Below, piece after piece: positions 1 to 4,717 of a stretch of 64,000 bases of DNA. A program made the position numbers and the translations under genes. The stretch's first letter is position 1; every line of letters starts with the position of its first letter. The notes beneath the pieces are model-generated. The model was not told the origin of the DNA, ran no database searches, and was given only the letters and a program-made list of their open reading frames with translations. The stretch is from Actinacidiphila paucisporea (GTDB taxonomy: Bacteria; Actinomycetota; Actinomycetes; Streptomycetales; Streptomycetaceae), in contig NZ_FRBI01000004.1 of assembly GCF_900142575.1 (NCBI RefSeq), forward strand, positions 219,909-283,908. Reading direction: 5' to 3'.

Positions 1-1135
1 CGTCCTGCGCGACCGCCGCGTACAGGTCGCCGCCGGCCGCCGCCCCCGCCAGACCCTGGTCGCCGGACATCGCGGCAAGCACCCGCGGCTCCAACTGGCC
101 GGCGTCCGCGACCACCAGCAGATGGCCGGGGTCGGCGACCACGGCCGCCCGCAGCGGGCGGGGAATCTGCAGCGCCCCGCCGCCCCGCGTCGCCCAGCGC
201 CCCGACACCACACCGCCGACCACGTACTCGGGCCGGAAGCGCCCGTCACGCACCCAGGCCTCGCGCCATGCCCAGCCGTGCGCGGCATGGATACGCGACA
301 GCTCCTTGTACCGCAGCAGCAGCCCGGCTGCCGGGTGCTCCACCTTGCGCAGCTCGTGCGAACGGGTCGATGCCAGCGGCACCCCCACCCGCGCGAAGGC
401 CGGCAGCAACTGAGCGGGGGAGTCGGGATTGACCGGGCGGCCCAGCGCGTCCTGGATGCGCTGCGCCAGCTCGCCGAGCCTGGCCGGCCTGGCACCGCCC
501 GCCGGGCGCGGCCCGAGCAGCCCGGTCAGCAGCTCGTCGTGCGCCCGCGCGCTCCACGGCAGACCGTCCCTGCCCATCTCGACCGCCGCCAGTGCGCCGG
601 CGGACTCCGCCGCGCACAGCAACCGCATCCGGTCCGGCCGGTCGCCCGCCCCGATCCGCCGCTGCTGGGCGGCATGCACCTCGACCAGCGCCGCCAGCGG
701 GTCCGCGTCCGGCGGCAGATGGTGCCGGTCGGCGGCGAACAGCACCGGCTGGTCGTCGCCGCCCGCCTCCGGCGCGTCCGGCGGCTCGGGCAGTCCGTGC
801 AGCCGCGCCCAGGCCGCCCCCAGCGAGCGCGGCCTGCCGTGCCTGCCCTCCTGGCCGAGCAGCAGCGACTCGACCAGCTTCACGTCATGGCACCGCCCGA
901 CCCGGACCCCGCCCCGGTCCAGCAGCCCCTGATAGACCTCCTCCGTCCCGCCCCACACCCAGCGCGGGCCGGCCGCAGCCTCGACCTCCCGCACCGCCCG
1001 GGCGAGATCGGCCACCACCGCGGTCCCGCCGACCGTCCCGCCGTCCTCCCCGAGCCCGCACAGCCGCCCGCCGCTCCCGACCGGATCGGCCACCACGGCC
1101 ACCCGCCCGGCTCCTGCGTCAACGGCTGCGTCCAC
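1..1135 (-). CDS. Bifunctional 3'-5' exonuclease/DNA polymerase (PolA-like), 5' part, cut by the window edge
   Basis: About 378 codons of the N-terminal part are visible; the C-terminus lies beyond base 1. The reading frame gives an actinobacterial PolA-related protein: a weakly conserved exonuclease-like N-terminal region, then a polymerase thumb/palm region with LGELAQRIQDALGRPVN and SRIHAAHGW. Near residue 345 is VVADAGQLEPRVL, which aligns with family-A polymerase motif A (DYSQIELR) and keeps the metal-binding Asp. The family is thought to act in DNA repair synthesis; the activity is inferred from homology. I chose GTG at 1135 because a RecA-NDp-type promoter ends 6 nt upstream, so the mRNA would be leaderless. 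An in-frame GTG further in is less likely. Confidence 0.8.
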   Translation of the reverse strand, partial: MDAAVDAGAGRVAVVADPVGSGGRLCGLGEDGGTVGGTAVVADLARAVREVEAAAGPRWVWGGTEEVYQGLLDRGGVRVGRCHDVKLVESLLLGQEGRHGRPRSLGAAWARLHGLPEPPDAPEAGGDDQPVLFAADRHHLPPDADPLAALVEVHAAQQRRIGAGDRPDRMRLLCAAESAGALAAVEMGRDGLPWSARAHDELLTGLLGPRPAGGARPARLGELAQRIQDALGRPVNPDSPAQLLPAFARVGVPLASTRSHELRKVEHPAAGLLLRYKELSRIHAAHGWAWREAWVRDGRFRPEYVVGGVVSGRWATRGGGALQIPRPLRAAVVADPGHLLVVADAGQLEPRVLAAMSGDQGLAGAAAGGDLYAAVAQD

Positions 1136-1141
1136 TCCCCG

Positions 1142-1164
1142 AGAGTAGGTCCGACCACTGACAA
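1142..1164 (-). promoter_or_regulatory. RecA-NDp (PafBC-type) DNA-damage promoter
   Basis: On the minus strand TTGTCAGTG (1164-1156) is followed after 8 nt by TACTCT (1147-1142). This fits the actinobacterial SOS-independent damage promoter TTGTCRGTG-N8-TAnnnT exactly. The hexamer ends 6 nt before GTG 1135, so transcription would begin at the start codon. It drives a repair-type polymerase, which fits the known regulon. Confidence 0.8.
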
Positions 1165-1195
1165 TGCCGCCGGCGGCCGTCTTGGGAACGCCGAA

Positions 1196-1227
1196 GAGCC
1201 CGGCGGCGTGTGGCGCCTGCCGGGCTC
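1196..1227 (-). terminator. Hairpin terminator after thioredoxin
   Basis: GAGCCCGGC (1196-1204) and GCCGGGCTC (1219-1227) form a perfect 9-bp stem just downstream of the thioredoxin stop codon. There is no T-tract, as is usual in this GC range. Confidence 0.55.
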
Positions 1228-1239
1228 GGGGGCGAGGGG

Positions 1240-1611
1240 TCAGTCCTGCTTCGCCTGGGCTTCCTCGACGGACTTGTGTACCTCCGCCATGTCCAGCGCG
1301 CGGGCCTGCGCGATGACGTCCTCCAGCGCGGGCTCGGGCAGCGCGCCCGGCTGCGCGAAGATCGCCACCTTGTCCCTGACGATCATCAGCGTCGGGATCG
1401 ACTGGATCTGGAAGGCCGCCGCAAGCTCGGGCTGGGCCTCCGTGTCGACCTTCGCGAAGACCAGGTCCTGGTGCTTCTCTGACGACTTGTCGTAGACCGG
1501 CGCGAACGACCGGCACGGCCCGCACCAGGCGGCCCAGAAGTCGATGAGGACGAAGTCGTTGGCGGACACGACCTCGTCGAAATTCTCCTTGGTCAGCTCC
1601 ACAGTGCTCAT
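1240..1611 (-). CDS. trxA: Thioredoxin
   Basis: A 123-residue cytoplasmic thioredoxin, the normal size for the family. It reduces protein disulfides via the WCGPC motif (Cys30 and Cys33, in DFWAAWCGPC); the cis-proline loop reads SIPTLMI. The C-terminal tail MAEVHKSVEEAQAKQD is a short charged extension. ATG 1611 is preceded by GGGGAGGGC, a ribosome site set close to the start. It lies downstream of a citrate synthase in the same direction, but a 517-bp repeat-bearing spacer makes co-transcription unlikely. There are several thioredoxins in streptomycetes, so the trxA symbol is generic. Confidence 0.93.
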   Translation of the reverse strand: MSTVELTKENFDEVVSANDFVLIDFWAAWCGPCRSFAPVYDKSSEKHQDLVFAKVDTEAQPELAAAFQIQSIPTLMIVRDKVAIFAQPGALPEPALEDVIAQARALDMAEVHKSVEEAQAKQD

Positions 1612-2128: not shown

Positions 2129-3433
2129 TCACCCCCGCGGTAGCGGCACCGGCTGGGGCGCCCCCACCCCGGCATAGACCCCCCTGGGCCGCAGCCGCAG
2201 CGCCCGCTCCCCGTACTCCTCCAGCGCGTGCGCGACCCACCCCGCGGTCCTGCCCACGGCGAAGACGGCCTCGCCGGCTTCCGCCGGCATCCCGGAGGCG
2301 ACCGACAGGACGGCGAGCGCGAGGTCGACGTTGGCGTGCAGCGGTGTGTGCCGCGCCGCCGTGGCGATCGTGTCGCGTGCCGCGGCGAGCGCGTCCGCCG
2401 CCGCGGGCACGTCGGCGAGGAGGGTGAGGAGCAGCCGCGCCCGCGGGTCCTCGCCGTGGTAGAGCCGGTGCCCGAGCCCCGGCACGCGCTGCCCGGCGCG
2501 CAGGTGCGCCGCGACGACGGGACCGGCGCCGCCGGCCAGGACGTCGGCGAGCATCCGGTGGGCGAGCGCGCTGGCCTGCCCGTGCAGCGGCCCGTCGAGC
2601 GCCCCGAGCCCGGCCGAGACCGCGGCGTAGGGGTGCGCGCGGCCGGAGGCCGCGACACGGACGGCGAGGGTCGACGTGGCCAGGTCGTGGTCGATGAGCA
2701 GGACGAGCGCGGCGTCGAGGACCCGCAGCGACGCCGCGTCCGGCTCCTGTGCGGTGAGCCGTGTCCACAGCCGCCGGGCGATCGGCGCGTCGCCGGGGGC
2801 ATCCTCCCCGCCGGCCGGCGGCAGCGCGTCGACCAACGTCGGGATCAGCCCGCGGGCGCAGCCGAGCACCGCCTCCCGGGTGAGGTCGAAGCGCAGCGGA
2901 TCGGCCGCGCCGGCGGCGATCACCGCGACCCGCATCCGGTCCATCGGCCCGCTGCCCGCGGGCAGTGAGCCAGCCGCGGCCCGGGCGGCGGCCAGCGGCT
3001 GCGGAGGAGCGATGAAGCGGACGCCGACCTCCAGCTCCCCGGTCCACAGCCACTGCGCGACGTCCTCGTATGCGTAGGCCTCCGCAAGGGCGACCGCGTC
3101 CACGCCGCGGAAGGCGTAGCTGTCGGTCGCCGCGTCGATGAGGGTGATGCCGGTGCGGATGCGGCCCCATCCCTCGGCCTCGCCGTCGGAGGGGGAGCCC
3201 GAGGCGGCGGTGCCCGCTCCGGCCCGTCCCCTGGCGGCCAGGGCCGCGACCTCGGCCGGGTCGAAGGTGCTGCCCCGCCCGCCGGCGGCCCGCCGGCTGT
3301 CGAGCAGCCCCCGGCTGACGTAGGCGTACAGCGTCTCCGGCTTGACGCCGAGCCGCGCCGCCGCCTCCCGCGTGCTGATGCGGGCGTCGTCGCCGCCCGC
3401 TGCCCCGTCCGTCATGGGCGCCACCGTATCCAC
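2129..3433 (-). CDS. Citrate synthase with N-terminal MerR/excisionase-like DNA-binding domain
   Basis: Residues ~18-70 (ISTREAAARLGVKPETLYAY...) form a helix-turn-helix of the MerR/excisionase type. The rest is a citrate synthase fold that condenses acetyl-CoA with oxaloacetate (or propionyl-CoA in the methylcitrate branch). Catalytic landmarks are present: GPLHGQASALAHR, GLGHRLYHGEDPR and NVDLALAVLS with the catalytic Asp. Three starts are possible: GTG 3433, GTG 3424 and ATG 3415. GAGGTGG lies 5 nt before GTG 3424, which I consider the best; the longest is given here. It is divergent from a second citrate-synthase-like gene, with a perfect AT-rich palindrome between. The fused HTH suggests the enzyme may bind that DNA (inference). 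Streptomycetes keep a similar divergent pair. Confidence 0.9.
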   Translation of the reverse strand: MDTVAPMTDGAAGGDDARISTREAAARLGVKPETLYAYVSRGLLDSRRAAGGRGSTFDPAEVAALAARGRAGAGTAASGSPSDGEAEGWGRIRTGITLIDAATDSYAFRGVDAVALAEAYAYEDVAQWLWTGELEVGVRFIAPPQPLAAARAAAGSLPAGSGPMDRMRVAVIAAGAADPLRFDLTREAVLGCARGLIPTLVDALPPAGGEDAPGDAPIARRLWTRLTAQEPDAASLRVLDAALVLLIDHDLATSTLAVRVAASGRAHPYAAVSAGLGALDGPLHGQASALAHRMLADVLAGGAGPVVAAHLRAGQRVPGLGHRLYHGEDPRARLLLTLLADVPAAADALAAARDTIATAARHTPLHANVDLALAVLSVASGMPAEAGEAVFAVGRTAGWVAHALEEYGERALRLRPRGVYAGVGAPQPVPLPRG

Positions 3434-3468: not shown

Positions 3469-3526
3469 ATTGACAGGCTACCGATCAAGCATGGACAGTC
3501 AAGTAAGGAGTCAAGGAGGAGAACCG

Positions 3527-4717
3527 ATGCCCACCACCGCACCCCCCGCCCCCTCGCAGTCCGCCCCGCCGCAGCCGGCGCCGCCCGAAGTCCCGCGCGG
3601 CCTCAAGGGCGTGGTCGTCACCGACACCGTGCTCGGCGATGTCCGTGGAGCCGAGGGCTTCTACCACTACCGCGAGTATTCGGCGGTCGAGCTGGCGGCG
3701 AGCCGCGGCTTCGAGGACGTGTGGCATCTGATGTTCCACGGCACGCTGCCGACGGCCGAGGAGCGTTCCCGCTTCACCCGGCAGACCGCGGGACTGCGCC
3801 GTCTGCCCGCCGCCGTACGGGACGCGTTGCCCGCCGTCGCCCGCGCCACCGGCGGGTCGGGGCCGCTGGCCGGGCTGCGTACGGCCCTGTCGCTGACCGG
3901 CGCCGCCGCCGGATTCCGGCCGCTGTACGACCTTGATCCCGAACAGCGGCAGGCCGACGCGCTGGCCGCCTGCGCGGTGGTGCCGACGCTGCTGACAGCG
4001 CTGCACCGGCTCGGCCGCGGCCTGGCGCCGATCGAGCCGCGCGACGACCTGCCGTATGCGGCGAACTACCTGTACATGCTGACCGGCGAGGAGCCGGTCC
4101 CGGACCGGGCGCGGGCCGTCGAGCAGTATCTGATCTCGACCGTCGACCACGGCTTCAACGCCTCGACCTTCACCTCCCGGGTCATCGCCTCGACCGGCGC
4201 GGACCTGGCGGCCTGCCTGGTCGGGGCGATCGGCGCGCTGTCCGGGCCGCTGCACGGCGGGGCGCCGAGCCGCGCGCTGGACACGCTGGACGAGATCGGC
4301 ACCCCGGACCGCGTCGACCCCTGGCTGCGCGAGCACATCGCGGCCGGCGAGCGGATCATGGGCTTCGGCCACCCCGTCTACCGCACCGAGGACCCGCGCT
4401 CCCGGCTGCTCAAGGGGATAGCCCGGGGTATCGGCGGTGACCTCGTCGACTTCGCCGTGCAGGTCGAGGCGCGCGCGGAGGCGCTGCTGGCCGAGCTGAA
4501 GCCGGGGCGGGACCTGCACATCAATGTGGAGTTCTACGCCGGCGTGGTGATGGAGCTGTGCGGATTGCCGCGGGAGATGTTCACGCCGACCTTCGCGGCG
4601 GCCCGGGTGGTCGGCTGGAGCGCCAACATCCTGGAGCAGGCCGCCGACAGCAAGATCATCCGCCCGTCCGCCCGCTATGTGGGGCCGCCGCCGCCCCGCC
4701 CGGTCCCCGCGGTCTGA
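3527..4717 (+). CDS. Citrate synthase-like protein (2-methylcitrate/citrate synthase family)
   Basis: 396 residues. A proline-rich N-terminus is followed by the citrate synthase fold: GPLHGGAPSRALDTL and IMGFGHPVYRTEDPRS carry the usual histidines. The third catalytic position, normally Asp in NVDFYSG, reads NVEFYAG here (Glu335). A Glu at that place makes normal citrate synthase activity doubtful, although from memory the same residue occurs in streptomycete relatives. ATG 3527 is fixed by the strong ribosome site AAGGAGGAG at 3514-3522. It is divergent from the HTH-fused paralogue and probably co-regulated through the shared palindrome. It could act on another acyl-CoA substrate or as a partner of the paralogue. 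Confidence 0.88.
   Translation: MPTTAPPAPSQSAPPQPAPPEVPRGLKGVVVTDTVLGDVRGAEGFYHYREYSAVELAASRGFEDVWHLMFHGTLPTAEERSRFTRQTAGLRRLPAAVRDALPAVARATGGSGPLAGLRTALSLTGAAAGFRPLYDLDPEQRQADALAACAVVPTLLTALHRLGRGLAPIEPRDDLPYAANYLYMLTGEEPVPDRARAVEQYLISTVDHGFNASTFTSRVIASTGADLAACLVGAIGALSGPLHGGAPSRALDTLDEIGTPDRVDPWLREHIAAGERIMGFGHPVYRTEDPRSRLLKGIARGIGGDLVDFAVQVEARAEALLAELKPGRDLHINVEFYAGVVMELCGLPREMFTPTFAAARVVGWSANILEQAADSKIIRPSARYVGPPPPRPVPAV

Follow-up and report, generated by a model that had tools for sequence, protein, structure and literature searches.

The gene of a second, Klenow-like Pol-I-type DNA polymerase in Actinacidiphila paucisporea is most probably transcribed from a PafBC-dependent promoter of the RecA-NDp class which, to judge from the sequence, would drive a leaderless mRNA. 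The site lies in the first part of the window, by which the whole analysed stretch of 64,000 nucleotides is meant, and comprises the following features.

1156..1164, minus strand: upstream element TTGTCAGTG, at about -26, recognised by exact match and from orthologues
1148..1155, minus strand: 8-nt spacer GTCGGACC, read from the sequence
1142..1147, minus strand: -10 hexamer TACTCT, read from the sequence and fitting TAnnnT
1133..1135, minus strand: GTG start codon, separated from the -10 hexamer by the 6 nt CGGGGA
1100..1102, minus strand: rival internal GTG, read from the sequence, 39 nt past the -10 hexamer, with an AGGAG ending 8 nt before it
1189..1234, minus strand: inverted repeat separating the thioredoxin gene from the promoter, its arms at 1189-1204 and 1219-1234
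1240..1611, minus strand: thioredoxin gene, codirectional with the polymerase gene and upstream of it, with a WCGPC motif in the translation
1..1135, minus strand: 5' part of the Pol-I-type DNA polymerase gene (NF011538), from open frame and profile match

The promoter motif and its conservation at polymerase orthologues

The initial annotation had placed the motif TTGTCAGTG-N8-TACTCT at 1164..1142 of the minus strand, 6 nt before GTG 1135, and this proved to be exact and correct in its coordinates. The pattern TTGTCRGTG-N8-TAnnnT has a single exact match in the 64-kb window, which points into the polymerase gene. Allowing two mismatches adds three more matches, which is near chance (four in total versus 1.37 expected, with 4 of 100 shuffles reaching four). 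By analogy, TTGTCAGTG would be the RecA-NDp element read by PafB. A consensus scan of positions 1000-1700 gave no ordinary sigma-70 promoter, and a window scan for the SOS box TCGAAC-N4-GTTCGA with up to three mismatches, which degenerate boxes could escape, gave none closer than position 2313. As a separate observation, the same SOS pattern with up to three mismatches is found 37 times in the whole window versus 20.6 times in shuffles, none of 100 shuffles reaching 37, and this excess may be a codon effect. The inverted repeat at 1189-1234 folds with a z-score of -2.4, 4 of 200 shuffles folding equally well; it was not listed by the terminator scan and is possibly a hairpin terminating the upstream thioredoxin gene.

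A scan of orthologues had been suggested as a check of the motif, and three sets of loci and one additional collection were inspected. Within the genus, 20 loci out of 26 matches were sampled, all of which carry the motif with at most two mismatches to the relaxed form NTGTCRGTG-N9-A-N3-T; 16 of the 20 match this form exactly, and 13 of the 20 are exact to the full consensus. An in-frame start codon follows 6 nt past the -10 hexamer in 18 of these 20 loci, the exceptions being L179, which is leadered, and L180, where a GTG at 7 nt is in a different frame from that of the profile match.

The wider sample held 80 loci, 29 from Streptomycetaceae and 51 from outside the family, the latter presumably from Streptosporangiales, Pseudonocardiales and Micromonosporales as far as the genus names tell. 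Outside the family 23 loci have no mismatch, 12 have one, nine have two, six have three, and one has four. At most one mismatch is thus seen in 35 of 51 loci, while the reversed motif reaches this level in none of the 51 and two mismatches in six loci; among 1020 shuffled regions no mismatch was seen in none, one in nine, and two in 81. In 41 of the 44 outside loci with at most two mismatches an in-frame start codon stands at 6-8 nt, and the first base of the -10 hexamer is usually C or G. Among the 29 Streptomycetaceae loci of the same sample, 24 have the motif with at most two mismatches and eight of these 24 have a start at 6-8 nt; in Kitasatospora and Streptacidiphilus the motif is kept with leaders of mostly 33-70 nt.

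A further 30 loci, 24 of them from genus g9, which is probably Streptomyces, have the start at 6-7 nt in 21 cases, with at most one mismatch in nine and two mismatches in 19. In genus g9 the polymerase motif reads TGTCAGAC in 13 of the 24 loci, with the 6-7 nt spacing retained. Exact TTGTCAGAC combined with leaderless spacing gave nine matches in 26 genomes, and as eight of the nine lie upstream of the polymerase (in eight genomes), TTGTCAGAC was ruled out as a second regulon-wide PafBC motif in g9. Another 20 loci across genera show at most one mismatch in 11 cases, two of these more than 170 nt upstream, and at least two mismatches in nine; no convincing motif at the polymerase was found in g13, g16, g17, and g6 of this cross-genus set. 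The orthologue scan spoke for the motif in 16 of 20 congeners and 35 of 51 loci outside the family, but in some genera the motif is drifted or was not found. Taken over all lineages, retention of the polymerase site is widespread, though a number of them have a weakened site or none, and a leaderless arrangement is frequent without being universal.

Regulator genes and further motif sites in the genome

Two adjacent WYL genes are found in the genome, the first beginning about 1.8 kb past the second of two Pup-ligase-family genes, which from the gene order we infer to be pafA. The only solved relatives of the WYL genes at an E-value of 0.001 are chains of 7p5x, 9fnd, and 6sj9, named PafC, PafBC or transcriptional regulator-like protein; matches of the two genes to 7p5x, which we take to be the M. 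smegmatis initiation complex, have E-values of 1.3e-53 and 3.6e-47. On the strength of these sequence matches the two genes are assigned as PafB and PafC.

The genome (8.16 Mb, 78 contigs) holds 18 exact motifs versus none of the reversed pattern, and 61 Streptomycetaceae genomes together hold 990 versus seven, counts which are not independent events because genomes within genera are related. At least two exact motifs occur in each of the 61 genomes, with genus means of 3 to 27. An RTG codon stands 6-7 nt after the -10 hexamer at 419 of the 990 sites, taken without filtering for real genes, versus 24 of 990 at 11-12 nt, several of which also have a start at 6-7 nt. With the relaxed pattern TGTCRGTG-N9-A-N3-T and an RTG at 6-7 nt, 30 sites versus none reversed were counted in the own genome. 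Because reversing the pattern controls only poorly for coding bias, gap-shifted controls were added, which gave five sites at 11-12 nt (reversed, one) and 13 at 1-2 nt; the three lists overlap by several sites. The leaderless spacing, at 419 versus 24 of 990 sites, is a mark of the RecA-NDp promoter class.

Gene content behind the motifs was inspected in the own genome. Half of the 18 exact sites head genes related to DNA or similar: recA, ruvC, uvrB, a DinG/YoaA-type helicase, an AlkZ-like glycosylase, a PD-(D/E)XK nuclease, the present polymerase, a SWIM-zinc-finger gene, and a DinB_2 protein. Three sites (L001, L003, L006) are located inside long open frames of other genes, and six precede genes in which no repair family was found (L004, peptidase-like; L005 and L015-L018, without Pfam family). 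An ATG or GTG heading a gene follows 6-9 nt past the -10 hexamer at 10 of the 18 exact sites; at L001 a GTG at 7 nt heads no credible gene. In addition to the exact set, relaxed sites 6-7 nt before the start codon were found at a polA-type gene (L157, N-terminal 501 amino acids seen), a stand-alone 5'-3' exonuclease (L161), dnaX (L151), an endonuclease-III-type gene (L139), a MoxR-type AAA gene, and an alkyltransferase-like gene. Others stand before genes of no evident repair role, among them a response regulator, an ECF-type sigma factor, and a sugar kinase, and the frames L138, L141, L142, L166, and L167 are regarded as spurious.

Two of these sites deserve separate description. At G000:C32:223645-223746 (L143, L144) two RecA-NDp-like leaderless promoters point away from each other at a distance of about 40 nt and serve the SWIM-zinc-finger gene and the MoxR-type AAA gene. 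At recA (L008:1501-1569; G000:C46:29053) a GTG stands 7 nt past the -10 hexamer and shares its reading frame with the usual ATG, located 43 nt past the hexamer; the distance between the two codons is 36 nt. The string GTGGACGTG, matched irrespective of the gene behind it, occurs at the same spacing in several congeners. A second, leaderless form of RecA, 12 residues longer, is possible from this arrangement.

The interpretation of the site as a PafBC-read damage promoter, put forward in the initial annotation, gains from the PafB and PafC genes, the motifs before repair genes and the conservation at orthologues, and on this sequence basis it is well supported. There is about an even chance that Streptomycetaceae possess a full PafBC regulon with many leaderless core genes, in which damage proteins, possibly including an extended RecA, would be made by leaderless initiation. 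The core leaderless genes meant here are uvrB, the polA-type gene, the present polymerase, the DinG/YoaA-type helicase, AlkZ, endonuclease III, and others, and they would be leaderless because the promoter used by the activator keeps a set distance of 6-9 nt from the start codon.

The polymerase, its start codon and competing explanations

From GTG 1135 the open frame encodes 565 amino acids and continues beyond the left edge of the window on the same contig. This product matches the profile NF011538, "bifunctional 3'-5' exonuclease/DNA polymerase", with 720.9 bits (curated cut-off 389) and the Pfam family DNA_pol_A, and its nearest named relative among the matches listed is from Actinacidiphila cocklensis, with 94% identity in the best segment. 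The AlphaFold2 model has a mean pLDDT of 88.7 and in Foldseek resembles Klenow, Bst, and Taq fragments, with query TM-scores of 0.63-0.72 in the top 50. Residues D344, R384, K388, Y396, D514, and E515, which we take to be catalytic residues of family-A polymerases with roles as in Klenow, show no variation across the 30 orthologues aligned, which fits an active polymerase. No exonuclease domain was found in any of the 30 orthologues by domain search at an E-value of 0.1, nor did the alignment, with motif positions judged by eye, contain a conserved D-x-E carboxylate pair at the first strand. Of the repair-type exonuclease/polymerase proposed initially, the polymerase part stands on the profile and the invariant residues, but the exonuclease part finds no support, the word "exonuclease" being probably inherited from the family title since no such domain was recognised and no D-x-E pair is conserved. 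The enzyme is probably Bst/Taq-like and exo-dead. Elsewhere in the window two divergent citrate-synthase-like genes, recognised from their translations, occupy 2129-3433 (minus strand) and 3470-4717 (plus strand), one of which carries a MerR-type helix-turn-helix stretch at its N-terminus.

From the thioredoxin stop (1240) down to position 1135 the polymerase frame contains no ATG, GTG or TTG other than GTG 1135 itself; further in-frame GTGs follow 39, 45, and 48 nt past the -10 hexamer. From the spacing to the -10 hexamer and its conservation, transcription is predicted to start at GTG 1135 or within 1-2 nt of it, which would make the mRNA leaderless in the sense of a 5' UTR shorter than 9 nt. 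GTG 1135 is favoured because the 6-nt spacing is conserved. The initial annotation had gone further in stating that the promoter fixes the start of the gene; the conserved spacing of 6-8 nt agrees with the predicted leaderless start, but "fixed" is too strong a word since GTG 1102, with its AGGAG 8 nt before, is a real alternative.

This alternative retains the PafBC promoter and has translation begin at the internal GTG 1102 on an mRNA with a short leader, GTG 1135 being unused. Besides the AGGAG, an in-frame ATG or GTG at 30-54 nt past the -10 hexamer in 14 of the 20 same-genus orthologues agrees with it, as do the first 10 residues counted from GTG 1135, which have a mean pLDDT of 60 with the first strand starting at residue 11; the AlphaFold2 model leaves the choice between the two GTGs undecided. 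It is nevertheless considered unlikely, as the start stands at 6 nt in 18 of the 20 congeners, and four of these 18 are devoid of an in-frame ATG or GTG at 30-54 nt (in three such cases one is present at 57 nt). Outside the family the start at 6 nt stands directly before the conserved block in 18 genera (26 genus labels inspected), where the per-column conservation is partly circular because the rows were chosen on the motif; secondary start peaks in this comparison, at 12, 15, 18, and 21 nt, are mostly in-frame GTGs just behind the first start.

The leaderless PafBC promoter was also weighed against explanations which dispense with PafBC. That LexA controls the polymerase as a normal SOS gene, with the RecA-NDp match being incidental, could be suspected from the presence of sco3434 among the repair genes induced by topA imbalance, for which the LexA regulon is discussed as the likely cause (PMC6637917). 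The RecA-NDp motif is conserved at the orthologues, however, and no match to the SOS box within three mismatches lies nearer than 2313 in the window, an absence which is not final because degenerate SOS boxes are known from Streptomyces (PMC9380542 gives examples); altogether this explanation is very improbable. Still further from being credible is a chance origin of the 23-nt match with the polymerase being read from the thioredoxin promoter or another one. The polymerase frame does stay open into the upstream thioredoxin gene, but a hairpin lies between the two genes, the site and its spacing are conserved, and a chance match at the polymerase was ruled out by the genome counts (18 versus 0) together with the orthologue sites.

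For the preferred reading, a PafBC-driven leaderless mRNA, a mechanism can be drawn from M. smegmatis, where PafBC becomes active on binding single-stranded DNA; the -26 motif is recognised by PafB, and domain 4 of SigA is contacted by PafC in what is called sigma adaptation (PMC11804915). As published for that organism, damage would yield single-stranded DNA, which would activate PafBC. PafB would then read the upstream element, and through the contact of PafC with domain 4 of the housekeeping sigma factor RNA polymerase could start at a promoter with a -10 hexamer and without a usable -35. Initiation 6-7 nt past the -10 hexamer would land on the GTG, and the polymerase mRNA would therefore begin with its own start codon. 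The resulting polymerase would serve to fill gaps during repair. What the sequences show directly are the motif, its spacing, the PafB and PafC genes, the motifs before repair genes and the conservation, whereas binding by PafBC, induction by damage, the position of the 5' end, and a repair function of the polymerase are inferred. In S. coelicolor the gene sco3434, annotated as "DNA polymerase I", is listed as induced upon down- or up-regulation of topA (log2 2.01 and 2.29), along with recA, recX, lexA, and dnaE2 (PMC6637917), and SCO3434 and SCO2003 appear as DNA polymerase I entries (PMC3897704). SCO3434 is probably the orthologue of the present polymerase.

Comparison with known systems

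The promoter class is already known and the polymerase promoter is an added member of it; its significance stems from the PafBC-type regulon with leaderless genes which it exposes. Among the papers listed on PafBC or on DNA-damage promoters of actinobacteria together with leaderless transcripts (PMC7790235 and PMC10936776 among them), no title or abstract opening tells of a leaderless PafBC regulon; further background is provided by PMC8223512 and PMC6789036. In a 2022 study on the LexA regulon of S. venezuelae an initial motif search suggested that the M. smegmatis PafBC motif is seemingly not conserved, and the existence of a RecA/LexA-independent damage response in Streptomyces was left open (PMC9380542). 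The 990 versus seven motifs in 61 genomes of the family, together with PafB and PafC and the repair genes behind the motifs in the window's own genome, bear on this published doubt. As sites can now be named and 5' ends predicted, the question of the Streptomyces damage response has become directly testable, and one activator is linked to leaderless translation.

RecA-NDp promoters have been described upstream of S. coelicolor recA and of SCO6735, the latter being induced by UV (PMC5087735). The present site shares with these and with the RecA-NDp/PafBC promoters of mycobacteria, such as that of M. tuberculosis recA, the motif class before a DNA-metabolism gene (SCO6735 being a macrodomain gene), and PafB and PafC are encoded in the present genome. 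It differs from them in the start codon located 6 nt past the -10 hexamer, which predicts a leaderless mRNA. The polymerase resembles the members of NF011538 in its score above the cut-off, its invariant polymerase residues and its Klenow/Bst-like fold, but contrary to the title of the family no recognisable exonuclease active site was found in 30 orthologues. Leaderless mRNAs account for 21% of the primary start sites in S. coelicolor (PMC4895711). With the leaderless genes of Streptomyces the present gene has in common a start codon at the expected transcription start, predicted in this case; those genes favour AUG, whereas the polymerase gene has a GTG and is tied to the promoter class of one regulator.
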